From Planctomycetota bacterium (GTDB lineage: Bacteria > Planctomycetota > Phycisphaerae > UBA1845): a DNA stretch of 61,007 bases. The position numbers and the translations under genes are program-made. Where the stretch lies: the NCBI GenBank assembly GCA_024276605.1, contig JAJRWX010000011.1, positions 1 through 61,007 on the forward strand, written 5' to 3'. Below are positions 3,283-59,160 of the stretch, piece after piece (positions within the stretch are counted from its first letter, which is position 1; the number at the start of each line of letters is the position of its first letter). A model generated the notes under the pieces. That model was not told where the DNA came from. It was given only the letters and a program-made list of their open reading frames with translations, and made no database searches.

Positions 3283-3292
3283 GGTCTTATTC

Positions 3293-5698: not shown

Positions 5699-5707
5699 GG
5701 CGCTCTC

Positions 5708-8185: not shown

Positions 8186-8203
8186 CAACTTCTGGCTCCT
8201 TAA

Positions 8204-11099: not shown

Positions 11100-11281
11100 C
11101 GCGTGTGCCATGGTCGTGAGTGGGCTTGGGTGGAGGCCTAACAGCTGTCTCTCATGATACGGTATCCATGTCGCCGACAGAAAGCCACGGTCGGACACGG
11201 GTATATTGCGGACAACGGGTGTACCGCTGAGGCACCTTTGCCCGCGTATCAAATGATCCAATTAGTAATGTGAGATATGAC

Positions 11282-11845: not shown

Positions 11846-12561
11846 CGATTGCCTTGGAGACATGTTTTATCGAGTGCTACGACACGTGATTCATGGTGCT
11901 TCCGACGGGTCGAGTTTACGGGGCAAAGCCTCTGTCTCGAACCAACGGACCCTCCGTTCCAATACGTAACGACATCTCACCGTGCATGCGTTGGGTACGC
12001 AGAAATTGTATTCACAGGCTGACGCCAACGAATCTGATATGGCCCGATATCGAGTTCTGTCATGTATTCGTCACTAAGCGGCCATGCTTGGTTTAGCAGA
12101 GTTGTCGTGTTCTGGCTCGTCGTGAGAAAACGAAGGTCGCAACGGCGGATCCTATCGGACACTCATGTAACCTGTCGATTCATGCTCTGTGGTTGAATTC
12201 AGGTGCCATGTAATCATGTCGATGGGACTATACAGGCATATTGTCTTGCGGCGATGCATAGCCGTTTATTACGCGCGCGGTGTGCGCCCATCTATCGGAG
12301 GCCGGGAGCAGGCGATGCAGATCCGACCCACTGGTCGCGTAACCAACGGTCGTTTCGACCCGGTGCTGGTGATTACAACACTTCGTCGACATTGCCTGAG
12401 ACAATAATCGCCGTGATGGAAAGCACATGCAGAGGAGCTGAATGTGGTCGGCTCCATTCAGATGCTGTTGTTTGGCATGATCGAGCCGAGCGTGGGGACG
12501 GGCGCGGCCCACGTAGACAGGTGATGGGCCGAGGATGTTGAATTGATGGAGATCAAGTAAG
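11846..12561. other. 716-bp region without a recognisable gene
   Basis: All frames between cheW and the hybrid kinase are broken by stops, and the open stretches on either strand resemble nothing I know. A weak candidate is the frame around 12437-12518 (reading ELNVVGSIQMLLFGMIEP) that ends in a stop shortly before the kinase start, which might be a decayed gene. The segment GATGGAGATC at about 12546-12555 supplies the kinase ribosome binding site. No clear promoter or terminator was found. Confidence 0.4.
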
Positions 12562-33534: not shown

Positions 33535-35337
33535 ATGAATGACAAGACAAAGATGCCGAGTATTATTACATCTCCACCCGATGAGCCGTTATTGATGCAA
33601 CAATCCCACATACAGTCTCGTGCAACATCGCTGGCGCACTCAGGTTTATTAGTCGTGCTATTATCGTCAGTGTTTGTCGGCCCGATGTTGTGGTTTCATC
33701 GTGATAGTCTGCGTAATCTCATCTCCTTCCATGGCACATTGCATGTCGCGATTGCCCAGCAGTTCAGTCAGGGACAGTTTCCACCGGAAAACCCTTTTTA
33801 CGCAGGTGAACCGGTCGGATACTATTGGTTCTTTCATTATATTAGTTATCTTCTAGCCAACGTCCTACAGACGGACCTACTGCATGCGATCGAACTGTTA
33901 AGTCTTATCGCGTTGGTTGGTCTAGTGATCATCGCGGTTGCCTTGGGTCGTCGATTGTGGGGAACGGCCACAGCCGGTGCTTGTCTAGGCTACCTTGTGC
34001 TGGTAGGTGCCAACGGATTCGGTTGGCTTATATTACTAGCTAAAATCATCCGTGACGGGCCGCAAATTATGGGTGCCCCGGCTACAGCGGTCATCAGGCC
34101 GTTGCTGTTACAGGTTCAGTTTGGGGACCATAGGTTCGGGCCAAACTTTACGTACTATTTCCACATGACCTCTCGCCCCGTAGCATTAACACTTACCTTG
34201 GCTATGGTTGCTTGTCTATACTGGCTTTTACTAAGACGATCGGTCATAGCAGGTCTTTCGCTTTCTGTGGTGACGGCATTGTGCGTAGCCTTTAATCCAT
34301 TGATCGGACTCGCAGCTGGTGGAGCGTTGGTTGGTGGTTTGATTATTAACATGGCGATCAAACCATACGTATCAAAAAAAAGTTTAATTGGGTATGAGAC
34401 TTCGAATACGACTTTGGCATCTTGTGGAGCGATTGCCTTTGGTGCAGCCTGTGCATGGCCGACGTTTAGTCACCTATTGTTCGGAGGCAGTAGCGCTGGC
34501 ATCCATTTCGCCCCATTTCGATGGAAACTGTACGGCATCGTCGTTGCCAATGTGTTTGTGATCGCCATATTGGCAGGCGTTGGCTATCGTCATCTATCCA
34601 CCCGATGGCTGGGATTGGGGCGTATAACGATCATAGCTGGTGTTATACTCATGTTGGCTACTGTACTTTTTGCGATGCCGGGCACTCTCGGTGAAACCGG
34701 ACGTACGGGTAATGAACACAATTTGTTCAACACAGCTATGGTTCTTTTAGCTGTCCCCGCTTCCGGCGCTGTCATGCGATCGAGATCGTGTAATCATATC
34801 GACAGTCGTTCCACCCTGGTAACGTGGCGTGGGGTCGCGTTGGTTCTGTTTTTCGTGCCAACCACGCTCCTCATTATGTATTCGTATCACGGTCGAGCTC
34901 CCGTAGCCGTTGCACTAGATCGAACCAATATGAGATGGTTAGACCAATCATTACCGATAGCCAAGTATTACGAGTGGGTCAATACCGAGACCCAGGCAGA
35001 TGCAGTATTCGTCGTATCTCCCGATCAAGCCCCGCAGCGACTATGTAATGTGTCCGACTTCCCCGCCTTCACGAAGCGAACCTTATTTACCGATCAACGC
35101 TCTTACATGACGGACACTTATGCGGATGCGCCGTATCGAACGGAACTTTCTAAAAATGTAGCATTGGGCAAAGCCATGACGTTAGAGGATCGAGATTATT
35201 TACGGAATTTAGCTCGACCGGTTTATTTGACCTCTTACGAAGCTGATAACACGCAGCGCCTCGAAGCACTTCGTCGAACCTATGGTAAGCCTTTGTTTGT
35301 TGTTGATCATATAGCTACATTTCTATTGATGCCTTAA
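33535..35337 (+). CDS. Large multi-pass membrane protein, GT-C-like
   Basis: A 600-residue membrane protein. After one hydrophobic segment it has HGTLHVAIAQQFSQGQFP and GEPVGYYWFFHYISYL, which resemble the first external loop of GT-C enzymes with a YYWFFHY stretch known from uncharacterised membrane proteins of bacteria and archaea. Some ten further hydrophobic segments and a soluble tail (about 470-600) follow. No DxD pair is clear in the first loop, so an active glycosyltransferase role is unproven. ATG 33535 begins 18 bases after the previous stop. Confidence 0.6.
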   Translation: MNDKTKMPSIITSPPDEPLLMQQSHIQSRATSLAHSGLLVVLLSSVFVGPMLWFHRDSLRNLISFHGTLHVAIAQQFSQGQFPPENPFYAGEPVGYYWFFHYISYLLANVLQTDLLHAIELLSLIALVGLVIIAVALGRRLWGTATAGACLGYLVLVGANGFGWLILLAKIIRDGPQIMGAPATAVIRPLLLQVQFGDHRFGPNFTYYFHMTSRPVALTLTLAMVACLYWLLLRRSVIAGLSLSVVTALCVAFNPLIGLAAGGALVGGLIINMAIKPYVSKKSLIGYETSNTTLASCGAIAFGAACAWPTFSHLLFGGSSAGIHFAPFRWKLYGIVVANVFVIAILAGVGYRHLSTRWLGLGRITIIAGVILMLATVLFAMPGTLGETGRTGNEHNLFNTAMVLLAVPASGAVMRSRSCNHIDSRSTLVTWRGVALVLFFVPTTLLIMYSYHGRAPVAVALDRTNMRWLDQSLPIAKYYEWVNTETQADAVFVVSPDQAPQRLCNVSDFPAFTKRTLFTDQRSYMTDTYADAPYRTELSKNVALGKAMTLEDRDYLRNLARPVYLTSYEADNTQRLEALRRTYGKPLFVVDHIATFLLMP

Positions 35338-37516: not shown

Positions 37517-38725
37517 TTGGGTCAAGAAATAGCTATACCTGATGACAAGCATGAGGTCGACGCGTCTCGGTCTGGGCGTCGATGGATGTTTCGCCTTACC
37601 GCCGCTGGCATGTCGATTTTGTGTTTCATCGCCTTCTTAGAGGTATTGGCATTAACCAAGCTGGTTGATTACCGACTCGTGTTTGCCACACCTTATGGTA
37701 AGGCGTGGGAGAGTCCACGAAATCGACTCGATCCGGAATTGATCCACGTGCATCAATCGTATGATTCTTTCGAGGGATTGATTAGTGGAGACTTGGCCGT
37801 TTGGTTCGGCATGGATACGGGCCTGCGTTATCCGGTGGCCGTGCAATATGATCAGCACGGTTTTCGCAATGACACAGATATGACATCCGCAGACATGGTA
37901 GTCGTGGGTGATTCGTTCGTGGAAGCTCCCATTGTTCTCAAAGAGAAAATCACTACTTCTCTATTGGCTAAGTCACTATCTATGGATGTGTATAATCTCG
38001 GCCAATACGGGTATGCACCGCAACAGGAGCTTATTGCGTTCAAGCGATATGGACTTGCGGTAAACCCAAAAGTAGTCGTTTGGATCATATTCGAGGGCAA
38101 CGATTTAACGCATGATGTTCGAAGGTATGAGCGACATGCGAAAAATTGGGATCGATTCATCTCACAGACGCATGGCTTTCGTAAACGAAGCTTTTCACGA
38201 AATATATATCATCTGGTCGCTCGTACAATACGACCCAAACGACATGATAAACGGTTCGGATGGGAACGTTCCGGCGTGTTGACCGGCCCGGGCCAACTTG
38301 CAGGCGAGCGTATGTATTTCGGTTATGATGCTACGGAAATTAGCCTAGAGGATAAGAAAGCGATTACGATTGGGCTGGCGGTCATTGATGAGGCAGCACG
38401 AATATGTCAAGAACGTGGCATTAAATTACTCGTAGCTTTCGCGCCGATCAAGTATCGCGTCTATCATGATATGTGCACCTTTGAACCGGGGTCCAAGGCC
38501 TCAACATGGATGCCGTCTTCCATGACGGATATCGTAGCCTCGTGGGCACGAGACAGCCAGATTGAATTTCTCGATCTGACCAACGCGCTTCGTGCTAAAG
38601 CAAAGTCGGGGCAATTGGTCTACTTTTTGGACGACGGTCATTGGAATGCCAACGGTCACGCTGCCGCTGCCCAGGCTATTGAACGATTTTTGCAAGAAAA
38701 CCATTGGCTATCAAACATCCCATGA
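37517..38725 (+). CDS. SGNH-hydrolase/AlgJ-like protein with N-terminal membrane anchor
   Basis: A 402-residue protein with one membrane segment (about 25-46) and an external SGNH domain. The nucleophile block is VVVGDSFVE (S133), block III is IFEGNDLTHD, and the C-terminal catalytic pair is D372-x-x-H375 in FLDDGHWNANGH. These features match AlgJ/AlgX- and DltD-like proteins that transfer or remove O-acetyl groups on exported polysaccharides. No MBOAT acetyl donor protein is encoded nearby, which weakens the acetyltransferase reading. TTG 37517 is the likely start. The stop overlaps the next gene by ATGA. Confidence 0.82.
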   Translation: MGQEIAIPDDKHEVDASRSGRRWMFRLTAAGMSILCFIAFLEVLALTKLVDYRLVFATPYGKAWESPRNRLDPELIHVHQSYDSFEGLISGDLAVWFGMDTGLRYPVAVQYDQHGFRNDTDMTSADMVVVGDSFVEAPIVLKEKITTSLLAKSLSMDVYNLGQYGYAPQQELIAFKRYGLAVNPKVVVWIIFEGNDLTHDVRRYERHAKNWDRFISQTHGFRKRSFSRNIYHLVARTIRPKRHDKRFGWERSGVLTGPGQLAGERMYFGYDATEISLEDKKAITIGLAVIDEAARICQERGIKLLVAFAPIKYRVYHDMCTFEPGSKASTWMPSSMTDIVASWARDSQIEFLDLTNALRAKAKSGQLVYFLDDGHWNANGHAAAAQAIERFLQENHWLSNIP

Positions 38726-40335
38726 GTGAAAGCTCTCCTCTAACTGCTGACGAACCGACTCAACCAAACGCGTTGATTTTGATAGGGCTTGTAGCCATCA
38801 TCGCGCTGTATCTATGGCATGCACTAAGCGTGGGCTACGTGGTGGATGATGCCTACATATCCCTGCGTTATGCTCATAATTTTGCAGAAGGTCATGGGTT
38901 GGTCTACAACATCTCAGAGCGCGTCGAGGGATATACCAATTTCCTATGGGTCATGTGTTTGGGGATTATCGCATGGGCTATACGCGGTGTTGATCTTTTA
39001 GTCGTAGCGCAAGGTATTTCGTTGGCGTTCGGCGCGGCAACGCTCATATTAATGTTCATTCTCGCGCGGCGCAGCTTTGCGAAGTCGCCGTGGTTGTGGC
39101 TAGCTGGACCGATAATGCTCGCCGGAAACTCATCCTTTTGCGCCTGGTCCACAGGCGGCTTAGCCGGCACGGTTTATGCGTTTTTGATTCTTCTCGCTCT
39201 GGTCATGCACGATAGAGAATTCCGCATAGGCCAGGGTGCACTAGCTTCGGTCATACCTATTGTTCTATTATCATTAGTGCGGGGTGACGGATTTATCTGG
39301 TTTGCCATATTCAGTGTATTTCGGTTTGTTGAACATTTTCGACGCGGTCAGTCAGTGCTTAACCGGCGCACGCTGATTTGGGTTGGTGTATTCTTGGCCG
39401 TGCTCGGACCCTATATTGCCTGGCGCGTATGGTACTATGGCTATCCGTTACCCAATACATATTACGCCAAAGTTGGAGGCAGCATCGATTTGTATGTACG
39501 CGGTTTCCGCTATTCGAAACATTTTTTTGAGCAATGTGGCGGTGCGTTATGGTTGCCTCTCATCGGTATATCGTGGATAAAACGCGACAGTCCGACGTGG
39601 ATACGAGGCGGCCATTGGATCTTGCTGGGATGGTTCGCTTATATCATAAAGGTAGGCGGGGATGGGTTAGCTTTTTTTAGATTCTTTAGCTACATCGTGC
39701 CGGTCATGTATATGCTTGCCGTTGCTGGCTTGTATGACATGATAGTGTGGGCAAAAGAAAATACGCGGAAAATCTCATGGTGGAGGTATCGTCTTGCCAT
39801 GAGTACCGTTGTACTGATGCTTGCGGGTCTGGGTGCACAGCTATCGAATCAGGTGTTGAGACGCCCTGATCCATCGATCGCGCCATACCATCATTTTGAT
39901 AACTATTTTGTTGCTCGTTGCGCGGCTGCGGGGAGGTGGTTGGCAGCGAATGCTCACGAAGATGATGTCATTGCCTCGACTCCGGCTGGTGCGATTGCTT
40001 ACTTTACAGACCGAACCGTGATCGACATGCTGGGGCTAACCGATCAACATATTGCCCGCGTGCCTACCGTAAAACCTGGCCGAGGTCGCGCCGGGCATGA
40101 AAAGGGCGATGGTGTGTATGTATTGTCCCGCGAGCCGGCGTTTATTTTGTTGGGCAATGTCGCGGTGGGGCCTAAGCCGATGAATGCAGAGGATATAGAG
40201 CGTGATCTTTGTCAGCGATCCGAACATGAGATTTGGGCGGACCCGGTGTTTCACAAGACATACGAATTGCAGTCGGTTCGACTTAGCGACAGCGGGCCGT
40301 TCCAGTATTTTACGTTTTATCGGAAGAAGTCATGA
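38722..40335 (+). CDS. GT39-like membrane glycosyltransferase
   Basis: A 537-residue multi-pass protein. The first external loop reads VDDAYISLRYAHNFAEGHGLVYN followed by ERVEGYTNFLW, a strongly conserved pattern with the acidic DD pair expected for GT-C catalysis. About nine hydrophobic segments and a soluble tail (from about 400) follow. ATG 38722 overlaps the upstream TGA as ATGA, which I take over a TTG 18 bases earlier. Its stop overlaps the next ATG in the same way, so three genes in a row are translationally coupled. Confidence 0.8.
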   Translation: MSESSPLTADEPTQPNALILIGLVAIIALYLWHALSVGYVVDDAYISLRYAHNFAEGHGLVYNISERVEGYTNFLWVMCLGIIAWAIRGVDLLVVAQGISLAFGAATLILMFILARRSFAKSPWLWLAGPIMLAGNSSFCAWSTGGLAGTVYAFLILLALVMHDREFRIGQGALASVIPIVLLSLVRGDGFIWFAIFSVFRFVEHFRRGQSVLNRRTLIWVGVFLAVLGPYIAWRVWYYGYPLPNTYYAKVGGSIDLYVRGFRYSKHFFEQCGGALWLPLIGISWIKRDSPTWIRGGHWILLGWFAYIIKVGGDGLAFFRFFSYIVPVMYMLAVAGLYDMIVWAKENTRKISWWRYRLAMSTVVLMLAGLGAQLSNQVLRRPDPSIAPYHHFDNYFVARCAAAGRWLAANAHEDDVIASTPAGAIAYFTDRTVIDMLGLTDQHIARVPTVKPGRGRAGHEKGDGVYVLSREPAFILLGNVAVGPKPMNAEDIERDLCQRSEHEIWADPVFHKTYELQSVRLSDSGPFQYFTFYRKKS

Positions 40336-47471: not shown

Positions 47472-48458
47472 CTACTTGATTACGGGATCCCAAACGAATT
47501 GTTCGAGGCCAACAGCTCTGATGATAGGGTCGTGGTAGGCGATAAACAGTGCGATGGTGAGCCAGAGTATGATACTTGCAATCATCATTTTGTCTTTGAG
47601 TATAATCTCCGTTGGGCCGGCGAACTTGCCGAGTTCTGCACACATGGTGTATCGAAAGATGCCATAGACCACAATGGGCAGGGTGTAGAACAAATGCTCT
47701 TTGTGGAAAGGGGTCGGATTTCGTCCGGGTTCCATGGTGTACAAGAGAAAGGTCATCACGGCTACGGCTGCGGAGGTCGTAAGTAAATGACTTAGCAGGC
47801 GCGGTGTGTAGCGAATGAGTGTGGCCCGGTGTTTGGCTGCTGATTTGTCGTTGCCGAGCATGGATAGTTCACATTGCCTTTTTCCGAATCCAAAGAAGAG
47901 GCAGAGTGTGAATACGCATCCGATCAACCATTGTGAGGCGACCACATCAACCGAAGCTGCGCCGGCCCACGCGCGAAGAACAAAACCCGTGGCTAAGACG
48001 ATTACATCCAATATCGCTTGGTTTTTCAACGTGATGGAGTAGGCCATCATTAAAATAAAGTAAGTGCCGAGGATGGCTGTAACAGTTGAGTTAATAAAGG
48101 TGGTCGCAATGAACAAGGCACCACTGATCAAGACTGCAGATAGTGCCAGGCCCGTGGCCGGAGAAATAGCGCCGCGGGCGATGGGGCGATCACGTTTTGT
48201 CGGATGACAAGCATCCGCTTTTCGATCGATGGCGTCGTTGATGGCGTAAATCGAGCTGGCGGCCAAGCAGAATGAAACAAAAGCTAAGATAGCGTCGAGC
48301 AGTGATTGGGGGGACGATAACTTCAGGCTGGCAGCCGGTCCTGCGAAGATGATGATGTTCTTGACCCATTGATGCGGTCGAAGCAGTGATACAAGATCGC
48401 CGAAGGAAAAGTGTGAAGTAGATTTGGCGTTCTCGTTGCTAGATTCAATAGTAGTCAT
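47472..48458 (-). CDS. UbiA-family decaprenyl-phosphate phosphoribosyltransferase-like protein
   Basis: A 328-residue membrane prenyltransferase with about nine segments. The motifs RPHQWVKNIIIFAGP and NDAIDRKADACHPTKRDRPIA match the DPPR-synthase branch (Rv3806c type), which attaches 5-phosphoribosyl to a polyprenyl phosphate, and differ from menaquinone or haem branches. In mycobacteria the product leads to the arabinose donor for wall glycans. Here no DprE1/DprE2 pair is present, so the sugar may stay ribose or be changed by another enzyme. It is the last gene of the exosortase operon, 32 bases after the TPR gene. Confidence 0.85.
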   Translation of the reverse strand: MTTIESSNENAKSTSHFSFGDLVSLLRPHQWVKNIIIFAGPAASLKLSSPQSLLDAILAFVSFCLAASSIYAINDAIDRKADACHPTKRDRPIARGAISPATGLALSAVLISGALFIATTFINSTVTAILGTYFILMMAYSITLKNQAILDVIVLATGFVLRAWAGAASVDVVASQWLIGCVFTLCLFFGFGKRQCELSMLGNDKSAAKHRATLIRYTPRLLSHLLTTSAAVAVMTFLLYTMEPGRNPTPFHKEHLFYTLPIVVYGIFRYTMCAELGKFAGPTEIILKDKMMIASIILWLTIALFIAYHDPIIRAVGLEQFVWDPVIK

Positions 48459-48490: not shown

Positions 48491-51400
48491 CTATGGGGAT
48501 GCTTCCTCGCCTAACACATTTTCAATGATGGTTTTTTCCTTCTCACTTAACCCCCCCAGACGTTTGTTTAGGATGAGTGCTTCTCGATATCGCCGTTCCA
48601 CCTGATTAACCTCTTGAGCCTGTGCGAGTACCATGCCCAAGTGGTATGTCGCGGCAGTTAAGGTTGAGGTTTGGCCTGCCATGCGGATGCACTTTCGCAA
48701 CACTGTTTTGGCCCGAGCGGTTTGACCTAATTTGGACAAAATAACACCGTGTGTGTCGAGCATTTCTGCGTTGGGTCGGCCGCCTGAACCTATATAGCGA
48801 TCTATCAGATGGGAAGCCTGCTCTGCTTTATTCATATGTTCGCTATAAAGCCAAGCCAGCGCGTTAACCGCTTGGGCGGAGTTGGGATTCATACCGATCG
48901 CTTGAAGGAAGTGTGATTCGGCGTCGGTATACTGCTCGGATTGATAGTAACATAAACCTAGGCGGTAGATGGCGTCTGCGCTATGGGAAGCGTAGGTCTG
49001 TGCGATCTCTCGAAGCCAGGCCATGCCGGCGGACCTTGCCTGGGGAGCATCTTGGCGAAGGCCCAGTATTTGCGCGGCAAATATCCACGAGTCGACGTCT
49101 TGTGGAAAAGCGTCTCGGCGGTCTTGAACTAGGGCTTGCATATCTGCCCAATTTTTTTGTCGCGCATGAAATCGTATAAGTGCCTGTATGGCGGCACTTG
49201 ATTTAGTAGTAGCAGAATCGATCTGATCCCAAAAATGTTGTGCTTGACTTACGTTGCCCATAGATTCATGTAGTCTCGCTAAGGCAACGATAGCCCCTAT
49301 CGCAGGGCGATTTTTCGAAGTGATTTGCTGAATGAACTGTATAGCCCGTGTACGCTGTCCTAACGCTATGTAAGACGTCGCCAATAAATCTAACGCCGTG
49401 TAATCGTCCACTCGTTTTTCCAAGACTTGCTGAAGAGGTGCTATAGCGCGTGCATGCTGACCTCGATATACAGCCAATTCCGCAGAGGCAAGTAGCAGGT
49501 CTGTATCGTCAGGATCAATGGCTAGTCCGGCTGAGACCGTCTTGTCTGCTGCAGAAAGTTTACCTTGACGAATTTGAACTGAGGCAAGCGTGTGATGAAC
49601 TTGCGGTACTGTCGAATCGGAGGCAATAGCTTTTAGAAGCCATCGTTCAGCAGCGTCATAGTCTGGTGGACGGTTGATACTCGCTAGTTGCCCTTTAATG
49701 GCCAGCGCTTGGGCATCGTCAGGTGCTTGCTCAAGTCTGTTTTGTACAATATCGGTTGTGCGGCGTAAGTCTTCCGGTGAGCCGTTTGATAAATAGAGTC
49801 TGGCCAGACGGATCGAAGAATTCGGATCTTCGCCACCGGCGATGAGTGCTCGTTCCATCAAGGTGCGCTGTTTGTCCGGTTGACCGTGCATGGCCCAAAA
49901 TTGAGCACATGAGGCTAGCAACGTGGCGTTGTCAGGTTCCAATTCCAGTGCTTTGGTGACTGATGCTTTGGCTTTATCAAATTGTTTTAAGCCCGCGTAT
50001 AGTTGTGCGAGCAGGACGTACAGTTCGCCATGATTATTGGTTCGTGCTGCTTGTTGAAGCGATGAGATAGCAGTCTCTTCTTTTCCCTGGGCGACTAATG
50101 CACGTGTTAATGACCACCATAGCGCGGGTTCTTGTGGGTGTCGTTGAAGATAATCACGCGCAATGGATTCCGCACGCTCATTGTTTCCACTGCGCCAATG
50201 TAGGCTGGCGGTAGTGGCAGCCCATGCGGGGTCATGGCCGCTGGCGGCAAGGAGTCGTTCGGCTGTTTCTATGGCAGCGGAGATGTCTTGAGTACGTACG
50301 TAATACTTCGTGCGAAGGCGCAGTACCGCAGGTTCATCCGGATTAGAACGAGTTAGATCACTCAAGACGGCGTCTGCTTCAATGAATCGTCCTAATTTAT
50401 TGAGCGATGTCACAAGACGTGCTGCAACAGGGCCTTCACCTAGCTCGGGTTGTTCGGAAATAGCGGAACGATAAATATCTATGGATTGGTCTAGTTCACC
50501 GCCTAATGCCAGCGCATCTCCGAGCCATATGCGAGGCGTTACCCAACGGGGACGTTGGTTAATACAATATTGCAATAGTTGTATGGCTTCTTGAAGATCC
50601 TTCTCATAACCGTTTGATCTGAGCAATGCGGCTGCACGAACTATGCGCCACTGTAAATCATCATCTCCCAAACGCAGGCGCAAGTGGTTGGCCATATCTA
50701 ACGATTCGTTGCGATCTGTTGTTAACTCAGCGAGTAACGAAGTCGCCGTCGAGTCGTCCGGGTTTAGTTGGATAGCTTGGCGAAGGGTTACGCAGGCGTT
50801 GTCGATTTGACCTTTAGCACGCTGCATGGCAGCCAGACCACGCAATAGTACGCCCATGGATTGAGGTGGCAGGTGCAAGGCGTCGATGTATTGTCGAATA
50901 TTTTCCGATTGATTCTTAGATAGCATCGTGCGCAATTGTAGAAGGTGAGCGCGCGGCGATTCCGGGTGAGCGCTAATGATCTTTTGTTGTAATTGTTGGC
51001 TACTTTCTGCTTGATTTGTTTGTAAGTAATCTGCATATCTCAGTGCCAGTATCAGGCCGAATTCGTTTTCTTGAAGGTGTTCGTTAACCCATGCAGCACA
51101 GGCCGGCGCAAAGCTGGTTAAGGCAAAACAATCCGCTAGGATTTGAGCGGCCATACTATTGGCTGTTACATCGTTAGCGTATGTGATGAGTTGTTGTTGA
51201 ATGTCAAGTTGGCGTTGTTGCGGTAGCGTTGCAAAAGGTGTGGTGGCTAGGTCGGCAGCCAGACTGAGCAGGGCATGCAATTGGTGTTGCTGATCCGTCG
51301 TAGGATGCGCACTATCGAGCCACGTATGCAAATGGTCTCGCCTACCGTGAATCCAGTCAATTTGGGCTAATCCATGTCTGGCAATAGCTGAGTGTTCGTC

Positions 51401-52672
51401 AGTCAATAGCAAGCGACGGTACATGTTGGAGGCCGCGCCGAAGTTGCTCGATTGTCGATAAGCAAGCGCGGCTAGTTCAAGTGTTTTTATATCGTTCGGT
51501 GCTAGTTTGAGAACTAATTCGAATGCTCGGGCGGCTTCAACCGGTTTTTTATCCAGCAATGCGCGTGTTCCCTTTAACGCATGGAGCCAAATTTGCACAC
51601 GGGGTGAGCGAGAGCGTGCTTGGGAAATGATCTCAATACAACTACCCGCTTTATCCGACTGTCGAGCGTCCAGGTAAAGTTCAGCGGCGCGAGCCATGAG
51701 ATTCATATCGATACCGTTGGCCCGTTCGACCATTTCATCTGCCACTTTGATCAGACTATCAGCTGAATTTGTGGTGCGTGCCCATGAGGCGAGAAGCTGC
51801 AAGCGTCCACGATGAGAGGGTTCTATGGCTTTGATTCGATCTAGGTACGCTTTGCTGATGTTGGTATGGCCTCGATCAAGCTCGTTATGGGCCGCGGCCA
51901 GAAGTATGGGGACATGCCGTGGTCCTAGCGCTAACGCCTGGTCCAAATGTTTTTGGGCGCTGTCGGTGTCTTGCTCGTGACGGAAGAAAGTAAAGGCCGC
52001 CAGATGGATTTCAGGTGCTTGCGGTTTTGCTTGAAGACCTCGCTGCATCCAGTAGCGTGCCAATTTTGTGTCATTCAAATCAATCAGGTAAGTAGATACG
52101 AGTAAGGGATACAAGGTGCCCGCTTGCGGCATCTGTTCGACGGCTTCAATCAAGCCAGCCACGGCGCGATCGAATGCGCCCAAACCGTGTCGCGCTGCGG
52201 CTAAGATGGTATGGGCTTCGGGGTTATCGGGGGCTGATATAACCCACTGCTGGGCAAGCTGCTCGGCGGGCCGGTATTCTCGAAGCGCAATATATAACTT
52301 AGCTAGTTCCGCAATGCCGAATAAGTTCTTGGGGGAGACGCGGTTGAGCTTCTTTAGGGTTTCGAGTGTGCGACCAATGACTCTTGGATCGTCTTTGGCC
52401 AATTCGATCAACGACTTGGCATAGCGGGATAACACATCCGGCGCTGACGGTACGCGGAGCAGATATTGACGATAACCCTGGGCGGCGTGACGCCAGTTTT
52501 GCTTGTCAGCTGCGTTATCCGCAGCGGCTAGCACGCGCTGTGTATTTTGTTGTCTTTGATACGCATAGAGTTTGTAGGCGCCGGTAAACATGACGGTAAG
52601 ACCAATGATGCCCCCAAATAGCCACCGTAGGCGAAAACGACGTTTTCGTGATGATGGTGCACCCCTTGCCAT
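48491..52672 (-). CDS. Giant TPR-repeat protein with N-terminal membrane anchor (PrsT-like)
   Basis: A 1393-residue protein with a basic N-terminus (SSRKRRFRLRW), one membrane segment (about 20-42) and then tetratricopeptide repeats to the end. Repeat cores such as ALELEPDNATLLAS, AIGMNPNSAQAVNALAWLYS and AIQLNPDDSTATSLL recur at 34-residue spacing. ATG 52672 has GGAG ten bases upstream and is preferred to GTG 52696. Very large TPR proteins (PrsT) accompany exosortase/PEP-CTERM exopolysaccharide loci, where they may organise export or assembly. It lies in the periplasm if the single anchor is oriented in the usual way. Homology to PrsT in particular is inferred from context and size. Confidence 0.85.
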   Translation of the reverse strand: MARGAPSSRKRRFRLRWLFGGIIGLTVMFTGAYKLYAYQRQQNTQRVLAAADNAADKQNWRHAAQGYRQYLLRVPSAPDVLSRYAKSLIELAKDDPRVIGRTLETLKKLNRVSPKNLFGIAELAKLYIALREYRPAEQLAQQWVISAPDNPEAHTILAAARHGLGAFDRAVAGLIEAVEQMPQAGTLYPLLVSTYLIDLNDTKLARYWMQRGLQAKPQAPEIHLAAFTFFRHEQDTDSAQKHLDQALALGPRHVPILLAAAHNELDRGHTNISKAYLDRIKAIEPSHRGRLQLLASWARTTNSADSLIKVADEMVERANGIDMNLMARAAELYLDARQSDKAGSCIEIISQARSRSPRVQIWLHALKGTRALLDKKPVEAARAFELVLKLAPNDIKTLELAALAYRQSSNFGAASNMYRRLLLTDEHSAIARHGLAQIDWIHGRRDHLHTWLDSAHPTTDQQHQLHALLSLAADLATTPFATLPQQRQLDIQQQLITYANDVTANSMAAQILADCFALTSFAPACAAWVNEHLQENEFGLILALRYADYLQTNQAESSQQLQQKIISAHPESPRAHLLQLRTMLSKNQSENIRQYIDALHLPPQSMGVLLRGLAAMQRAKGQIDNACVTLRQAIQLNPDDSTATSLLAELTTDRNESLDMANHLRLRLGDDDLQWRIVRAAALLRSNGYEKDLQEAIQLLQYCINQRPRWVTPRIWLGDALALGGELDQSIDIYRSAISEQPELGEGPVAARLVTSLNKLGRFIEADAVLSDLTRSNPDEPAVLRLRTKYYVRTQDISAAIETAERLLAASGHDPAWAATTASLHWRSGNNERAESIARDYLQRHPQEPALWWSLTRALVAQGKEETAISSLQQAARTNNHGELYVLLAQLYAGLKQFDKAKASVTKALELEPDNATLLASCAQFWAMHGQPDKQRTLMERALIAGGEDPNSSIRLARLYLSNGSPEDLRRTTDIVQNRLEQAPDDAQALAIKGQLASINRPPDYDAAERWLLKAIASDSTVPQVHHTLASVQIRQGKLSAADKTVSAGLAIDPDDTDLLLASAELAVYRGQHARAIAPLQQVLEKRVDDYTALDLLATSYIALGQRTRAIQFIQQITSKNRPAIGAIVALARLHESMGNVSQAQHFWDQIDSATTKSSAAIQALIRFHARQKNWADMQALVQDRRDAFPQDVDSWIFAAQILGLRQDAPQARSAGMAWLREIAQTYASHSADAIYRLGLCYYQSEQYTDAESHFLQAIGMNPNSAQAVNALAWLYSEHMNKAEQASHLIDRYIGSGGRPNAEMLDTHGVILSKLGQTARAKTVLRKCIRMAGQTSTLTAATYHLGMVLAQAQEVNQVERRYREALILNKRLGGLSEKEKTIIENVLGEEASP

Positions 52673-52773
52673 ACCTTGTGATCTCCGCGTATTCACTGTT
52701 CTATTTGTTTTTATCGGCTAATCGGAAAGTAATCAATGACTGCTGTTGTGGCGGGCGCCGTGTGATCGTCACC

Positions 52774-54231
52774 TTAGGTTAGCTGTTGCTCAGCCCGTTT
52801 GGCACGATTCGAATGTGCGCAAATACCTCGATTTCCCAAATACAAAGCGAGCGAGTTGACAAACTGTGGTAGGAACATGGTAAGCGGCGTACAAAAAATG
52901 ATCACGGTGTCCAGCCAGAACGACTGGTGTTTCACATATTCTACGTCGTAATAGATCCATTCTTGAAAATCTGACTGGTTTTCAACGCGTAGACGTAAAA
53001 CCTGCCAAAGTCCTGTGATACCCGGTTGAACCGATAGTCTAGTACGACGCCAACCGGGACACAATTGATTCTCACGGTCAGGAGAAGGACGTGGTCCCAC
53101 CATGCTCATTTGCCCCAGTAGAACGTTCCACAGTTGCGGAAGTTCGTCTATGTTGTAGCGACGCAGAAGGATACCGATTTTTGTCAGTCGTGGGTCGTTG
53201 TCGATTTTGAATTGTGGACCATCCACTTCGTTTTGGCAACGCAAAGAAGCCTGCATTTGAGCGGCATCTGCCACCATTGTACGAAACTTATAACAACGAA
53301 ACTCTCGCCCAGCCAACCCTTGACGTACATCCCCGTAAAATATCGGGCCGCGCGATGTCGTCTTAATCCAAATGGCCGTCATGACCAGAAGAGGAAAATT
53401 AATCATCAAGCCTATGAGTGCGTATATGATATCAAATGCGCGCTTGGTGAAATGATAAAGCCGGCTCTTTCGAGATGGTAAAATGGTGGGGTCTTCACCT
53501 TTTGTTGGCTGGCGAGATGATATCGGTGCTTTCGTAGTACGGATGCTACCGTTGATGGGCTTGGGTGAGTCTAGCGCCTGGTCGCACGGCGAAGCCATCG
53601 TAGACAATACGCAATGTGAGCGTGACCAACGCAAAGGTATTGCTGATTCCATGGCCCGCATACTATCTACGCCCCAACCGTGTTGCACTATATGTCGAAG
53701 GGTAGTTTCACTCACCGACGGGGGGGCATAAATAAAGTAGGATGGCCCGAAAATCAACGAATGGCTATCGCGGGAATCGCAATAGTGTCGTTCGATTTTT
53801 ACGACGGATCCGGAATCATCGATGAGAAGCGTTTCGGGGTATCGTGTCCGTGTGGAGGATCCTGGTGGACCGAAGATGAGCGCTTCGCGTTGTAATGGTC
53901 GTGTCACCGCATGGGCCGCGTCCCAATCGAGAATAGGCAATGCGCCCGCGTTGACCAACCAAATGGGGGATGTATCGGGTACGTTGAGGTCAACATGTCC
54001 ATCTGTCTGATCGTACCAACTGAAACGGTTTGAACCGATGCGTTTGGCAAAACGATCTTCGGCATTTTGTAAGGAGACAGGCAGCAAGATGGTAATTGGC
54101 TCAGTCCAACCATTGGCTGAACGCGTATACCAAGCGAGTTTATGACCGAAGAGGTTACGTTCGCTCTTCGGCGTGGACTCATCTAGGAGAATCCTATCGG
54201 CGCTGTGTTTGTCAAAGTGCAAGAATACCAT
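52774..54231 (-). CDS. Bacterial sugar-phosphate transferase (WcaJ/EpsL-like) with extra N-terminal domain
   Basis: The C-terminal half (about 255-470) is the initiating enzyme domain of bacterial sugar transferases: one membrane segment, then GPIFYGDVRQGLAGREFRCYKFRTM, LLRRYNIDELPQLWNVLLGQMSMVGPRP and PGITGLWQV, split here. It transfers a sugar phosphate to undecaprenyl phosphate, the first step of repeat-unit synthesis. The N-terminal 250 residues have no membrane segments typical of WbaP/WcaJ and do not form a domain I recognise; the run from ALPILDWDAAHAVTRPLQREALIFGPPGSS resembles a sugar-nucleotide-like fold. The ATG 54231 has only a weak ribosome binding site. It follows the BY-kinase by 69 bases. 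Confidence 0.88.
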   Translation of the reverse strand: MVFLHFDKHSADRILLDESTPKSERNLFGHKLAWYTRSANGWTEPITILLPVSLQNAEDRFAKRIGSNRFSWYDQTDGHVDLNVPDTSPIWLVNAGALPILDWDAAHAVTRPLQREALIFGPPGSSTRTRYPETLLIDDSGSVVKIERHYCDSRDSHSLIFGPSYFIYAPPSVSETTLRHIVQHGWGVDSMRAMESAIPLRWSRSHCVLSTMASPCDQALDSPKPINGSIRTTKAPISSRQPTKGEDPTILPSRKSRLYHFTKRAFDIIYALIGLMINFPLLVMTAIWIKTTSRGPIFYGDVRQGLAGREFRCYKFRTMVADAAQMQASLRCQNEVDGPQFKIDNDPRLTKIGILLRRYNIDELPQLWNVLLGQMSMVGPRPSPDRENQLCPGWRRTRLSVQPGITGLWQVLRLRVENQSDFQEWIYYDVEYVKHQSFWLDTVIIFCTPLTMFLPQFVNSLALYLGNRGICAHSNRAKRAEQQLT

Positions 54232-54300: not shown

Positions 54301-56436
54301 TTAAGAGCTATTATTCTCTACGCCCTGATCGCTATAAGCGTAGCCATAGCCATACGCATAGCCATAAAGGTGCTGTCGCGCATCTATGCCATTGAGTACC
54401 GCTCCGACAACATTGGCACCTACGGTGCTGAGATACTTATAAGCGGCTCGTGCTTCCGCTTGGTCGCATTGCCCGGACCTGAGAACCAGCATTGTTTCAT
54501 CAGCGAGCACAGCCAGGATCACCGCATGACTGTTGGCCAATACCGGTGGTGAATCGATCACAATGTTATCGTACTTGTCAAATACCTTGCATAACAATTC
54601 CTGCGCATCACGATTCATGAGCAAAGAGCCGAATTCTTCTGATCGATCACCTGCAGGCAAGACATCGAGATTGGAAATGTAGTCCTCGTGAATCGCTTGT
54701 TTGACGGGAACGATATTTGCCAGGGTTTCCTGCAGGCCAACTGTTCCGAATAAGTCAAGTCGGCGGGTTAGACCTTGTCGGTCGTTATCACCATCGATAA
54801 TCAGAACGCGCCGTCCGCTGGTAGCGAAACTTCGCGCAAGGTTCCATGCCATGGACGATTTACCACTCCCCGATGTTGGGCTAGTGATCAATAACGTTCG
54901 TGGACCGTCTTTCTTGCAGCTTGTGGTTAACGCGGCAGATAAGCTACGCGCGGGCTCGGTCATAACATTGTCAAGCTCTTCTTTTGAGCCTTTAATTGAA
55001 CGAACTTGTTGGATGGTTCCCAGTAGTGGTACACCAAGCTGCTGCGTGACATGATTGGGATGTCTGACAAGTGTATCCATACGGCTGCGGACCAGCGCGA
55101 CGCCAACTCCACATGAAAGGCTCAACAACAAAGCCACCGCAGCGTATTTGAGGCGTTTGTCGATGTTAGGTTTTGTAGGGGCGACGGCTTTTGATCGAAG
55201 CGTAACACGCGGCATTCGGTTCTGTTCAACTTCTACGGTCCATATTTTATTGCGGACCTGAAACAACGATCGTTCGACTTGCTCTCGTTCGTGTTTGATG
55301 TCTTCCACCAGGAAGGCTTGTCGCACCGCCCCCGCTCGTTCTTCGGCGGCGGAGCCGAGTGCATCTGAGACGATCGTTTCCGTGATGGCGGCCTCATCGA
55401 TCGTGGCTTCTAAGTCTCGAATCATCCGAGCGATAAATTCGTCGCGTAATACTTGCTTTCGAGTTTCAATCGATTGACTCAGTGCAGTGACCATATGCGG
55501 ACGTGACCGTACTTCCGGGTGAGAGGTGCCCCGTCCCATGGCTTCGTCTGTATGTGCAGCGAGTTGTATAGAGCGAAGTTGTTGTTTGAGTTCGAGTAAT
55601 TCCGGGTCACTACCGGTGAATTCCTCCAAACCGGGCAACCGTAAATTCTCCACGCCTTTTTCGTTGAGTGCCTTATTAACTGCGGCTAACTGTGCTTTAG
55701 CGAAGGCATTGTCTCTCTTAGCCGTTGTGAGCATAGTGTGGTAATCAGGCAATCCCAACCATGCAGTAGAAGAATCATCCGAGGTATTCATAAGCCCACC
55801 GTCAGCAAGTTGTCGTAACTCTTCGCTTTTAAGTTTTAGGCGGTTTTCCAATTCAGCTTCTTCTCGGCGTAGTGAACTAAGTGCACGCTCATCTTCTAGT
55901 CTTTTTTCATCCTCATGGTGATCGAGGTATACCTGTACGATGCGATTAACGACATCAGTCAAGTCCTGGGGAAACTGCCCTGTCAAAGAAACACGGAGAT
56001 GTTCGGAATTACGAAGGTGTGTGACATTTATAGACTTGAGAACGAGTTGCACTGGATCTTCCGCTTCCGCTAACCATACACAGGATTTGATGCTCGGGTG
56101 ATTAACCGCTTCGTCAATAATGGCCGGGCTTGTAATAACACCGCGCTGCGTGGCTACATAACTATTATAATTGCGTGAGATATCCGTATCGAGATCGCCG
56201 GATATGATGGGGCGGACGATGGGTGCCACATGGACGAGTGCCCGAACCTCATATCCAGGCTTGATGGCCAGCGCAATGGCACCGAGTGATAACAAGGCAG
56301 TTAAACCGGCACACAATAGCATACATCGCCATCTGTCGAGTAGAGCATTGGCTAGATTCTCACCCTCATTCACCATGGCGGTGACTTCTACAGTCTCCGC
56401 TACGTGAGAGGGTATGATGTCATGTGTGCTTGCCAT
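54301..56436 (-). CDS. Fused Wzz/BY-kinase: chain-length regulator and tyrosine autokinase
   Basis: A 711-residue inner-membrane protein. The Wzz part has two membrane segments (about 37-58 and 431-449) around a long coiled-coil-rich periplasmic domain. The kinase part has Walker A SPTSGSGKSS with K526, Walker A' VLIIDGDNDR and Walker B NIVIDSPPV. The C-terminus ends in a Tyr-rich cluster with six alternating tyrosines from Y691 to Y701, expected to be autophosphorylated and to control polymer length. It lies 31 bases after epsI. In one-component BY-kinases this fused form is usual for Gram-negative bacteria. Confidence 0.93.
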   Translation of the reverse strand: MASTHDIIPSHVAETVEVTAMVNEGENLANALLDRWRCMLLCAGLTALLSLGAIALAIKPGYEVRALVHVAPIVRPIISGDLDTDISRNYNSYVATQRGVITSPAIIDEAVNHPSIKSCVWLAEAEDPVQLVLKSINVTHLRNSEHLRVSLTGQFPQDLTDVVNRIVQVYLDHHEDEKRLEDERALSSLRREEAELENRLKLKSEELRQLADGGLMNTSDDSSTAWLGLPDYHTMLTTAKRDNAFAKAQLAAVNKALNEKGVENLRLPGLEEFTGSDPELLELKQQLRSIQLAAHTDEAMGRGTSHPEVRSRPHMVTALSQSIETRKQVLRDEFIARMIRDLEATIDEAAITETIVSDALGSAAEERAGAVRQAFLVEDIKHEREQVERSLFQVRNKIWTVEVEQNRMPRVTLRSKAVAPTKPNIDKRLKYAAVALLLSLSCGVGVALVRSRMDTLVRHPNHVTQQLGVPLLGTIQQVRSIKGSKEELDNVMTEPARSLSAALTTSCKKDGPRTLLITSPTSGSGKSSMAWNLARSFATSGRRVLIIDGDNDRQGLTRRLDLFGTVGLQETLANIVPVKQAIHEDYISNLDVLPAGDRSEEFGSLLMNRDAQELLCKVFDKYDNIVIDSPPVLANSHAVILAVLADETMLVLRSGQCDQAEARAAYKYLSTVGANVVGAVLNGIDARQHLYGYAYGYGYAYSDQGVENNSS

Positions 56437-56467: not shown

Positions 56468-57175
56468 CTAGTTATCGGACGAATTATCCATCCCTGGTAG
56501 TATCTCTGATAGTTCGGGGATAAGCGACTCCATGAATACTAAGATATCAGATTCTGTCGCATCCCAGCCACCTCGCTCCGGTATCGCGGAAACATGGACC
56601 TGGGCCAAATACCTCACGGAACCGGATGAGGTGGATCTTGGCTCATGCCAGAAAAAACCGACAGACGAACTGTGGAATTGTCCACCGATAATGGCCACAA
56701 ACCCTACGGCCCGACGTCGAATACCCTCCGGGTCTGCTCGCACAAAACGATGCATAGCGATCTTAATGGTTTTTTTATCTGCCACGTTTGACACGGGCAA
56801 AGGAACCTCTGTAGCGGGCTGATCAATACTCCATCCGGATGCGGGATAACAGACCTCCGGACCGTGACTCATGCCTGTATTTTCACGTCCCCAGTATCCT
56901 ATGTAGACGCCGAAACGTAGTCTGGACTTTTGAGAGAAGTATTCACGATGGACGTAGCTATCCACGTTGGCCGCATCAAGCACCTCCAAGCTAAGTGGGA
57001 TGTCCTTCCCCTTATAGTCACCAATGGATAACGGCAACGTCGTGAGCGACTGAGACAACGGGGTAAGTTCCATCGCATAGAATGCACGGGAGACGCGAAC
57101 CCATCGAGACAAGCCTCCCGCAGCCAACAGCATGATAGTTACGACCAGGATGATTGGTGTTTTACGCGTATACAT
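56468..57175 (-). CDS. epsI: EpsI-family exosortase-associated protein
   Basis: A 235-residue protein with one N-terminal membrane segment (about 7-26) and an external domain holding the EpsI markers: LPLSIGDYKGKDIPL, then VYIGYWGRENTGMSHGPEVCYPASGW. The Cys in HGPEVCYP is the conserved one. EpsI proteins occur next to exosortases or as their C-terminal domain; their biochemical task is not known. It starts 23 bases after the exosortase stop, so the two are expressed together. Confidence 0.92.
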   Translation of the reverse strand: MYTRKTPIILVVTIMLLAAGGLSRWVRVSRAFYAMELTPLSQSLTTLPLSIGDYKGKDIPLSLEVLDAANVDSYVHREYFSQKSRLRFGVYIGYWGRENTGMSHGPEVCYPASGWSIDQPATEVPLPVSNVADKKTIKIAMHRFVRADPEGIRRRAVGFVAIIGGQFHSSSVGFFWHEPRSTSSGSVRYLAQVHVSAIPERGGWDATESDILVFMESLIPELSEILPGMDNSSDN

Positions 57176-57198: not shown

Positions 57199-59160
57199 CT
57201 AGCGTCCAGCTAATGAAGAGGTTGTTTCAGTTAAAGGTCCACTTTGTGATTCGGGTGAAAAAGGAAATTGCAAGTTAGATAGTAACTTAATTTCTAGCAT
57301 AATTAACACCACGGCAAATGGCATCATCATCAGTCCCGCGCCGTCATGGAAAAAACCTTGAGCTAAGCTATCCTGACCTAGATTATATAAGTAAGCCGTT
57401 CCCACGATGCGTGCGACATTACAAGCAAGGGCGATCGGTATGCTGGATAAAATAATAAAAAGTTTTTGCCATCTAGGCCGCTGAACGACGAAGGCTACAA
57501 TGCATGTGACGATGAGAAAAGCAAGGGCCATGCGTAACCCATTGCATGCTTCAGCGACGGCGACATTTTTGCCAGATACAACTAGAATATGGCCTGTACG
57601 AGCTACCGCCACACCGATTATTTCTAGAATAGTTGCGGAAATGCGTGCGCCGAAATCCTGTAGCGGTAGCATCATGCTGTCATGCACGCGGTTGGGTAAC
57701 GGCATCATCAGAAACAACAAGGCGAATGGTTGCCAAAGCCGACGGAATCCACGCCAGCCTACTATGGTCATTGTCAACCCGCTGGCGCATACAATCATGC
57801 CCGCATTGGATATGGACGCGTACAGATAGTAGGCTCCCCAAAGATTCATCAATAAGCCTGCGGAAAACAAGGCTACACCCAACGGTGAAAAGCGCTTGCG
57901 CTCGATGTTCAGTGCGCTACGCCGTGTGAATAGCATATACAAAGCCGCCAGCGGAACCAGCATGCCGGCACTATAATCGGGTCGTGACTGCCACGTTTCC
58001 CATAATGACGAAAAGTTATCTGAGAATGACCACACAAAACCGCAAACCACTGCGATCGCCGAGAACATCGTCGTATAGGATAGTTTCTGATCTTGTTGAC
58101 TAGTTAAGTTGGCGTCGTTTGTCTTAGACGCGGATGCATGAGATTGGTGATGACTCGCGCTGCTCTTTAGTACAGGTAGGTGAGGCTGTCGAACAAAGCT
58201 ATCACTGAGGGAAGAACCGCTATAAAAAGTCATCTGCGAACGCGCAACCGATCGAATGACCCAAGCGCCTCGCTCGAGATGGCAACCTTCCGCCAAATAG
58301 GTTGGCCCCATGAGTACCGATCCAGCGTCCAATCGGCATCCATGATCGATGAATGCGGGACCAACGATGCGAGCGTCAGGAGCTATCTCAACATTGCGGC
58401 CTACCCAAATTGCCGGCGCGATTTGGTGGTAATCGTTTTCTCTATCAGGACCATTAGATAACGTACGCGTAATCGCATGCAGATAACTTGGCCAATCGGT
58501 AACTTGTTGTGTTTGACCACGGAGTCTTACCGCACCGACACGTTGACCGGCATGCTGCAAAGAAGGAATGAGTTGTTCCTTCAAATCAACATAACCGCTG
58601 TTGGGAATGTGCTTGAAAACTTCAGGCTCACAGCAGTAAATACCGGCAGGGCGAAGTCGGGTCTCGTGAACATCATGAGCACTCACTTCCTGAGCCATGC
58701 AAAATACAGTAAGGGCATTACCCCCAGCGCGATGTTGCTCAAGCATCCAGGAGACATCGTCTTCCAGCCAAACTGCACCACCAATGACAATGGTTGTACC
58801 TGAGGAAAGGTCTTTTTCGCAAAGTTTGAGACAACCGGCTGTGCCACGCGGAAGTCGGTCTGTTTCGACGCGTAGTTGTAAGCTGTCAGGGTACTGAATG
58901 GATGCATGTTTATTGAATATTTCAGCTTGTTCATTAACGACCAATAAAGCTTCACCATCAACATGAGGTGCTAACTGCTGTTGTAAGTGATCGAGCAGTG
59001 TGCTGTTCGGGAGAGGAAGTAGTGGGAACGGTATGCCATCGGACCAGGAATCGTCGAGACCAACACTACCAGCCAAAATCAACAGGTTGGTGCGATCACG
59101 CGACATACGATCCGCAGGTGTATCTATAGCACTGGTATCATGAGTTGACGATACGTGCAC
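57199..59160 (-). CDS. Fusion protein: degenerate nucleotidyltransferase, beta-helix and exosortase
   Basis: A 653-residue continuous frame joins two unrelated parts. Residues 25-235 resemble a sugar nucleotidyltransferase: LLILAG, PFPLLPLPNSTLLDHLQ and RLPRGTAG keep its layout, but the GxGxR loop and the catalytic Lys are missing. Residues 245-325 form left-handed beta-helix turns (VEIAPDARIVGPAFIDHG). From about 360 the protein is an exosortase with eight or so membrane segments and the catalytic set C539 (EACNGLRM), R584 (NVARIVG) and H605 (FFHDGAG). Exosortases cleave and anchor sorted exported proteins. GTG 59160 is preceded by AAAGGTGG. It is the first gene of the minus-strand operon. 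I know no named family with this fusion. Confidence 0.85.
   Translation of the reverse strand: MHVSSTHDTSAIDTPADRMSRDRTNLLILAGSVGLDDSWSDGIPFPLLPLPNSTLLDHLQQQLAPHVDGEALLVVNEQAEIFNKHASIQYPDSLQLRVETDRLPRGTAGCLKLCEKDLSSGTTIVIGGAVWLEDDVSWMLEQHRAGGNALTVFCMAQEVSAHDVHETRLRPAGIYCCEPEVFKHIPNSGYVDLKEQLIPSLQHAGQRVGAVRLRGQTQQVTDWPSYLHAITRTLSNGPDRENDYHQIAPAIWVGRNVEIAPDARIVGPAFIDHGCRLDAGSVLMGPTYLAEGCHLERGAWVIRSVARSQMTFYSGSSLSDSFVRQPHLPVLKSSASHHQSHASASKTNDANLTSQQDQKLSYTTMFSAIAVVCGFVWSFSDNFSSLWETWQSRPDYSAGMLVPLAALYMLFTRRSALNIERKRFSPLGVALFSAGLLMNLWGAYYLYASISNAGMIVCASGLTMTIVGWRGFRRLWQPFALLFLMMPLPNRVHDSMMLPLQDFGARISATILEIIGVAVARTGHILVVSGKNVAVAEACNGLRMALAFLIVTCIVAFVVQRPRWQKLFIILSSIPIALACNVARIVGTAYLYNLGQDSLAQGFFHDGAGLMMMPFAVVLIMLEIKLLSNLQFPFSPESQSGPLTETTSSLAGR

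Follow-up and report, generated by a model that had tools for sequence, protein, structure and literature searches.

A conserved exosortase architecture of Planctomycetota with a nucleotidyltransferase-like pseudoenzyme module at the N terminus

One reading frame in the DNA analysed here (the window, i.e. the whole stretch of 61,007 nucleotides) encodes a single fused protein, in which a nucleotidyltransferase-like domain and a left-handed beta-helix are joined to a complete exosortase. The fusion is retained across many planctomycete families and is a conserved exosortase architecture of Planctomycetota. Our preferred reading, to which we give a probability of about 50%, is that the front ~325 residues are a cytosolic adaptor that couples the exosortase to exopolysaccharide priming.

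Results

Architecture of the fusion protein

The features of the fusion protein are as follows; the three residues of the triad are each invariant in 35/35 aligned fusions, the window included.

57199..59160, minus strand: fusion protein (pseudo-nucleotidyltransferase, beta-helix and exosortase), 653 aa, GTG start
58453..59091, minus strand: residues 24-236, GT-A type nucleotidyltransferase fold without the catalytic Lys (F45), the GxGxR Arg and the first metal Asp (A129), D222 kept (Pfam, AlphaFold2 model, alignment, fold search)
58195..58428, minus strand: residues 245-322, left-handed beta-helix (hexapeptide) turns, about four (AlphaFold2 model; Pfam hexapeptide match under the cut-off)
58090..58182, minus strand: residues 327-357, disordered, fast-evolving linker (pLDDT below 50; pN/pS 0.65-0.83)
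57271..58077, minus strand: residues 362-630, exosortase with about eight putative transmembrane helices (Pfam, NCBIfam, AlphaFold2 model)
57544..57546, minus strand: exosortase catalytic Cys539
57409..57411, minus strand: exosortase Arg584
57346..57348, minus strand: exosortase His605

The original prediction, made by inspection of the DNA, described an uninterrupted 653-codon frame with a nucleotidyltransferase-like front, beta-helix turns and a complete exosortase (C539, R584, H605), and all of this was borne out. The frame has no internal stop, and its start site is kept in both congeneric genomes compared (n=2). In the Pfam search NTP_transferase (PF00483) matched residues 45-161 with 26.6 bits (cut-off 21.2) and Exosortase_EpsH (PF09721) matched residues 373-626 with 196.9 bits (cut-off 25.7, E 4.9e-58), while a single hexapeptide repeat match at residues 270-301 was under its cut-off (22.6 bits, cut-off 27).

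The AlphaFold2 model, built from a 45-sequence alignment, has a mean pLDDT of 87.1 and consists of a nucleotidyltransferase fold, a beta-helix and a helical bundle. Runs of at least three residues with pLDDT below 50 are found at 1-7, 327-357, 639-641 and 644-653. The relative placement of the two halves is not interpreted because the pTM is 0.57. The fold-search matches listed for the model cover mainly the N-terminal part, which structure prediction thus makes nucleotidyltransferase-like. The best match is 8x7s, a UTP-glucose-1-phosphate uridylyltransferase (Z 27.8, 306 residues, 3.4 A), followed by eIF2B epsilon, plant VTC1 and human GMPPA/GMPPB (Z 26.7-27.4; 7d72, Z 26.7). The relationship of this part to nucleotidyltransferases is seen by sequence too.

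The exosortase half also passed the cut-off of the general NCBIfam exosortase model TIGR02602 (136.4 bits, cut-off 105.55). Among the best 25 of 32 rows no named subtype (XrtA, XrtD, XrtW, others) reached its cut-off, the best scores being 159.2 for XrtD (cut-off 400) and 137.2 for XrtA (cut-off 208). Cleavage and transfer of the C terminus of its substrates is the predicted activity of this half, and candidate PEP-CTERM proteins occur at seven places over the cut-off in the same genome. The exosortase matches of the genome are two; the second (L116, G000:C44:33206-34012) is unfused, has 28% identity and lies beside another Wzc gene.

The membrane part has nine candidate transmembrane helices, of which 490-515 is amphipathic-looking, yet its mean hydropathy of 0.38 equals that of 469-485. 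Before residue 339 there is no 19-residue stretch with a mean hydropathy above 0.93. With flanks included, loop 413-425 has five K/R, loop 559-562 three and loop 468 two, and between these charged loops of the exosortase lie less charged ones; the outer loop 516-540 also holds three K/R. By this positive-inside pattern the N terminus of the fusion would be cytosolic and the Cys/Arg/His triad outside, which agrees with the cytosolic front domain of the original prediction.

Lost and conserved residues of the front module

The active site was compared in an alignment of 65 members of the module (35 exosortase-fused including the window protein, 25 solo and 5 transferase-fused) and nine nucleotidyltransferases picked as intact by motif, one of which (L138) is poorly aligned outside the loop. 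Inclusion required coverage of 230 or more profile positions. Excluded were solo matches with an E value above 1e-40, transferase matches lacking the front part, and split or partial copies (G017, G061:C33).

At the positions scored, which we take to be the catalytic and metal positions by the example of RmlA-type enzymes, the catalytic Lys and the first metal Asp (F45 and A129 in the window protein) are each kept in one member and lost in 64/65, a fraction which describes a family defined by similarity to the module, since intact nucleotidyltransferases match the profile weakly, and which is not an independent sample. The Arg of the G-loop (GxGxR) is kept in two members and lost in 63/65, including the window protein; the second Asp (D222) is kept in 29/65, the window protein among them. 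Both Lys and Arg are present in 9/9 intact nucleotidyltransferases, and this comparison confirms the predicted loss of the GxGxR loop and of the catalytic Lys. The Lys position is occupied by Arg in 24/25 solo copies versus 12/35 fused ones. In 18/26 fusions of the second clade (e.g. L118:7352-9334) the G-loop is replaced by a DFGRCP motif that is absent from the window clade.

The segment T151-G173, where intact enzymes have their sugar-binding EKP motif, is 14-27 residues long in 60/60 fused and solo rows. In the nine intact enzymes its length is 16-46 residues (median 41), and EKP is present in 7/9. It is about 20 residues shorter in the window protein than in the intact enzymes. EKP was found within the segment in none of the 60 rows (L124 has those letters further on). 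In the five transferase-fused rows the segment has 24-47 residues.

Other positions are strictly conserved: G106, G109, H143, D192, K194, Y226 and G285 are invariant in 60/60 fused and solo rows, and G109, H143, D192 and K194 are different in the intact enzymes. G106 belongs to a PRGxAG loop which is kept in the module and which resembles the base-contact loop, lying where intact enzymes hold the base. Comparison of three congeneric genomes gives the linker a pN/pS of 0.65-0.83, whereas the nucleotidyltransferase part has 0.08-0.19, the beta-helix 0.16-0.19 and the exosortase 0.15-0.17; the values are rough, the synonymous sites being near saturation. In other words, the dead domain is under purifying selection of much the same strength as the exosortase half. 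As the residues are lost family-wide and selection is nevertheless similar to that on the exosortase half, we infer that the front module has lost its activity and is a pseudoenzyme that is being conserved rather than left to decay. The same genome has five other NTP_transferase matches; the four that were aligned all have Arg and Lys, so the supply of nucleotide sugars is probably independent of the fusion protein.

Distribution and origin of the fusion

A search with the full-length fusion profile and a hand count gave the full fusion in at least 52/397 genomes of the class. All 52 have an open frame of at least 626 aa, and 8/52 rows were flagged for a stop in the matched stretch. The phylum-wide search found the fusion in at least 9/392 genomes, three of them outside the class. 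Within the family the module occurs at E 1e-20 or better in 37/51 genomes. The full fusion is present in nine genomes of the family, and in a tenth (G017) it is divided between two contig ends. In the order the module reaches E 1e-30 or better in at least 72/114 genomes, and outside the family no fusion-length frame was found among the matches listed. The class and phylum searches scored 3-5 candidates per genome and the order search up to 18, i.e. these counts are lower bounds. The sequences of 35/55 fusions, the window included, were examined. A contig scan for the fusion matched two genomes of the same genus as the window, and the nearest records are a Phycisphaerae MAG and a Planctomycetota MAG.

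A single MAG contig alone would permit the view that the fusion is an artefact or a neutral, functionless join, a view to which we give practically no weight. An artefact of sequencing or assembly is ruled out because dozens of further genomes carry the fusion, and both the distribution (at least 52/397 genomes of the class and three outside it) and the purifying selection argue against a neutral join; the distribution refutes it.

All trees were made by quick searches. The exosortase tree (36 fused and 29 solo rows) is compatible with a single clade made up of both fused groups (AU p 0.779; the constrained tree was better by 17 log units). In the module tree one clade of all fused rows is rejected (p 7.5e-5) because the solo copies L041, L042 and L085 fall among the fused rows; the fused rows together with these three copies lie on one side of a branch with support 0. 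The trees would fit either two independent fusion events or one event after which some copies lost the exosortase half.

The operon and its neighbourhood

The window operon runs in the order fusion, EpsI, Wzc, PGT (phosphoglycosyl transferase), PrsT-like, UbiA. Its further genes are:

56468..57175, minus strand: EpsI/DUF3485 exosortase-associated protein, the next operon gene (PF11984, 70.5 bits; same place in first-clade relatives)
54301..56436, minus strand: Wzc-type chain-length protein/tyrosine autokinase (TIGR01007, 118 bits, over the cut-off of 108.05)
52774..54231, minus strand: monotopic PGT, Bac_transf at residues 263-453, which would start exopolysaccharide synthesis (PF02397, 205 bits; DELPQ motif at residue 362)
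53593..54231, minus strand: residues 1-213 of the PGT, a second nucleotidyltransferase-like domain, without beta-helix (model with mean pLDDT 71.2; fold search, Z up to 9.2)
48491..52696, minus strand: PrsT-like TPR protein (TIGR02917, 270.4 bits, under the cut-off of 312.2; same place in relatives)
47472..48458, minus strand: UbiA-type prenyltransferase, end of the operon (PF01040; same place in L034 and L039)

The order fusion-EpsI-Wzc-PGT-PrsT is found in six further genomes of the family (G001, G002, G011, G013, G020, G060); in G003 the PGT gene comes immediately after the fusion, with neither EpsI nor Wzc between. In the second clade the fusion, Wzc, PGT and PrsT genes are contiguous in 20/26 loci, and of the other six, five run past the available sequence and one (L131) is without a PrsT match. 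In one genome a single frame of 1384 aa comprises module, exosortase and Wzc (L117:2-4153); the join is short and the contig has 4154 bases, and a lost stop or a sequencing error is possible.

Besides the window, 34 fusions were examined, and all 22 of those with a downstream flank of at least 6 kb are followed by a PGT gene on the same strand. The solo loci are a subset that we chose from those found in the family, order and class searches, and with the same flank 20/21 have the downstream PGT on the same strand while 6/21 have a downstream exosortase. The exception to the former is L089 (9038-10183), a solo module with a Wzc and a TPR protein downstream instead. The module thus tracks the PGT more closely than the exosortase. 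The solo copies that belong to the window clade and are closest to the fused ones (L041, L042) lie directly upstream of a short-type PGT, and the exosortases are elsewhere in the genome.

Elsewhere in the window there is a chemotaxis-type cluster (400-8188 and 9276-15327) with CheB, CheR, CheW, CheA, a methyl-accepting protein, a hybrid kinase and an HDOD protein. A polysaccharide cluster occupies 23791-47326 on the plus strand and contains glycosyltransferases, a Wzx-like flippase, two sulfatase-family proteins, an AlgX-like protein, a radical SAM/SPASM protein and a deacetylase. Frames at 27360-28322, 31957-33516, 33535-35337 and 38704-40335 had no Pfam match at 1e-5.

N-terminal domains of the phosphoglycosyl transferases

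The PGT scored 250.9 bits against TIGR03025, under the cut-off of 295.55. The Asp-Glu motif, sought as one fixed pattern, was found in 43/60 PGTs and is claimed here for the window protein. The N termini of 54 downstream PGTs fall into two types: 44 are of the beta-helix type (often matched over the beta-helix alone) and 10 are of the short type, to which the window protein belongs. Profile comparison shows the beta-helix type to be homologous to the module (A1 versus A2: 99.5%, E 2.5e-23). The match between profiles A2 and A3, the latter being the N-terminal domain of the short-type transferase, is weak (probability 10%, E 0.003), so the assignment of A3 rests on the fold search and on two PGTs, L135 and L136, which match both N-terminal profiles and bridge them. 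These two suggest that the short type lost its beta-helix.

Modelled alone, the short-type domain has a mean pLDDT of 71.2, with values below 50 solely from residue 214 on. Its best fold matches are nucleotidyltransferases, and the top one, GMPPA/GMPPB, is moderate (Z 9.2, 176 residues, 4.1 A); the rmsd is 3.5-4.7 A in most rows and 6-9 A in several, and other GT-A-type enzymes are also listed. The short type goes with the window clade only, i.e. with one lineage and few independent events.

In five proteins the module is fused directly to a PGT (L100:8240-9979, L101:8527-10518, L102:3019-5130, L110:6583-8679 and L113:5589-7472). One of these copies (L110) keeps the Lys and another (L113) the metal Asp, and PGT-fused modules may for this reason be nearer to an active ancestor. 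The pseudoenzyme module is reusable, occurring exosortase-fused, solo or PGT-fused. The solo and PGT-fused copies, like the second nucleotidyltransferase-like domain on the PGT, the loss of the first metal Asp (A129) and the shortened EKP segment, go beyond the original prediction.

Discussion

Possible roles of the module

Computation shows the fusion and its fold, the absence of active-site residues, the purifying selection, the conserved operon and the second nucleotidyltransferase-like domain on the PGT; we infer physical contact with the PGT and a direction of regulation. The adaptor reading is suggested by the fact that the module lives with or on the PGT and that the PGT carries a similar-looking domain. 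The dead nucleotidyltransferase and its beta-helix would act from the cytosolic face of the exosortase and would hold together, or switch, the exosortase and the PGT encoded three genes downstream, which is expected to put the first sugar phosphate onto undecaprenyl phosphate. Processing of surface proteins at the outer face would in this manner be tied, both spatially and temporally, to the onset of exopolysaccharide synthesis by the same operon. There are points against this. The neighbourhood indicates a shared pathway, not contact; the PGT domain in the window has no beta-helix, which excludes a simple mixed beta-helix trimer in this case; the A2-A3 profile match taken by itself is weak; the change at the Lys position is milder (Arg) in 24/25 solo copies; EpsI and Wzc are missing between fusion and PGT in G003; and the link between PGT type and module clade is largely that of a single lineage. 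A direct contact of a comparable kind has been described for the small protein EpsW, which activates the PGT EpsZ (PMC12802240), and the archaeosortase ArtA is described as working with PssA and PssD, the presumed producers of its lipid anchor (PMC7157517). Loss of EpsH is reported to have left methanolan unaffected (PMC1569441), which speaks against a direct role in polysaccharide making. A bolder version, which we consider improbable, is that the dead modules on exosortase and PGT form one cytosolic complex and that the exosortase is thereby handed fresh undecaprenyl-linked sugar and links surface proteins to an acceptor that is the exopolysaccharide or its lipid-linked precursor.

The module could instead be a sensor, i.e. 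the dead domain would still bind a nucleotide or nucleotide sugar and switch the exosortase on when precursors are plentiful, much as GMPPA reports GDP-mannose to GMPPB. The original prediction was of this kind, and we now hold it to be rather unlikely, if less so than the other alternatives. The kept PRGxAG loop (G106 in 60/60 fused and solo rows), D222 in 29/65 members including the window protein, and GMPPA/GMPPB among the top fold matches (7d72, Z 26.7) are consistent with it, GMPPA being described as a non-catalytic paralogue able to bind GDP-mannose (PMC11228364). The G-loop Arg, the Lys and the first metal Asp are lost, however, the EKP segment is cut down to 14-27 residues from a median of 41, and the invariant G109, H143, D192 and K194 are not the residues of intact enzymes; the predicted binding of a sugar nucleotide or glycan by the front part is thus uncertain. 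Of the predicted link between surface anchoring and exopolysaccharide supply the association with exopolysaccharide genes stands, but since the module also occurs solo or PGT-fused and the PGT carries a second such domain, the likeliest role moves from a sensor for the exosortase to an adaptor or regulator shared with the PGT. That it regulates exopolysaccharide priming only, the exosortase being a mere membrane anchor or sharing its dosage, appears unlikely to us: solo copies do adjoin a PGT without exosortase and other copies are fused to one, but the exosortase fusion is kept over many families, the linker varies while both domains stay constrained, and any transmembrane helix could serve as anchor. 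Least probable among the functional readings, and by a wide step, is an active enzyme with an unusual site, e.g. a transferase acting via the beta-helix or a shifted catalytic residue. DFGRCP in place of the G-loop in 18/26 second-clade fusions and Arg at the Lys position in 24/25 solo copies mean that some site is conserved within groups; against this, the window clade has no DFGRCP, Phe takes the Lys position in the window protein and Arg does so in only 12/35 fusions, and the beta-helix is short, with about four turns.

Relation to known systems

The exosortase half resembles EpsH (PF09721/TIGR02602) in passing both cut-offs, in its triad, in its exopolysaccharide operon with EpsI, Wzc and PrsT-like neighbours, and in the PEP-CTERM proteins of the genome; it differs in having the nucleotidyltransferase-like and beta-helix N terminus and in reaching no named subtype among the best 25 of 32 rows. 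Haft and colleagues report EpsH fused to a CAAX-protease-like domain in four cases (PMC1569441). The literature searched, which lay mostly outside the subscription journals, yielded no description of an exosortase-nucleotidyltransferase fusion, and the search for transferase fusions returned no nucleotidyltransferase-type PGT fusion.

In eukaryotes GMPPA and eIF2B epsilon/gamma are soluble subunits, and the nucleotidyltransferase modules of eIF2B epsilon/gamma are catalytically dead. They share with the front module the nucleotidyltransferase fold and left-handed beta-helix (Z 26.7-27.4), and the front of the fusion is without catalytic residues; here, however, the module sits on a membrane protein-sorting enzyme and the EKP hairpin is lost. 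GMPPA is described as a catalytically dead nucleotidyltransferase that acts as a regulator (PMC11228364). By architecture the front part would be a GMPPA-like regulatory pseudoenzyme, with putative binding of nucleotide sugar and of an active partner. Sugar-1-phosphate nucleotidyltransferases (8x7s, RmlA, GlmU) have the same fold and order of elements, but the catalytic and metal residues are missing from the window protein and nearly all its relatives. The large monotopic PGTs WbaP and EpsZ likewise have a Bac_transf domain and lie in exopolysaccharide loci (the WbaP and EpsZ models match under their cut-offs), whereas the PGTs described here have a nucleotidyltransferase-like N terminus, with or without beta-helix.

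In one published account the substrates of exosortases are joined to "an unidentified compound" (PMC7468200), and a second source leaves it undecided whether the acceptor is the outer membrane, a polysaccharide or both (PMC12188702). In archaea, synteny with lipid-synthesis genes is described as having led to the proof that these are needed in archaeosortase processing (PMC7157517). ArtA with PssA/PssD is similar to the present case in that a sorting enzyme is tied to the presumed makers of its acceptor; in contrast, that acceptor is a lipid and not a glycan, and the genes are separate, with no fusion (PMC7157517).

The fusion described here is a natural one, retained in many planctomycete families, and elsewhere its front module accompanies the priming PGT or is joined to it, which points to the exopolysaccharide pathway as the partner of the exosortase. 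The module is a bacterial pseudoenzyme family that is reused on two kinds of membrane enzyme in one pathway, and the presence of similar modules on exosortase and priming transferase hints at a coupling of surface-protein sorting and slime-sugar synthesis.
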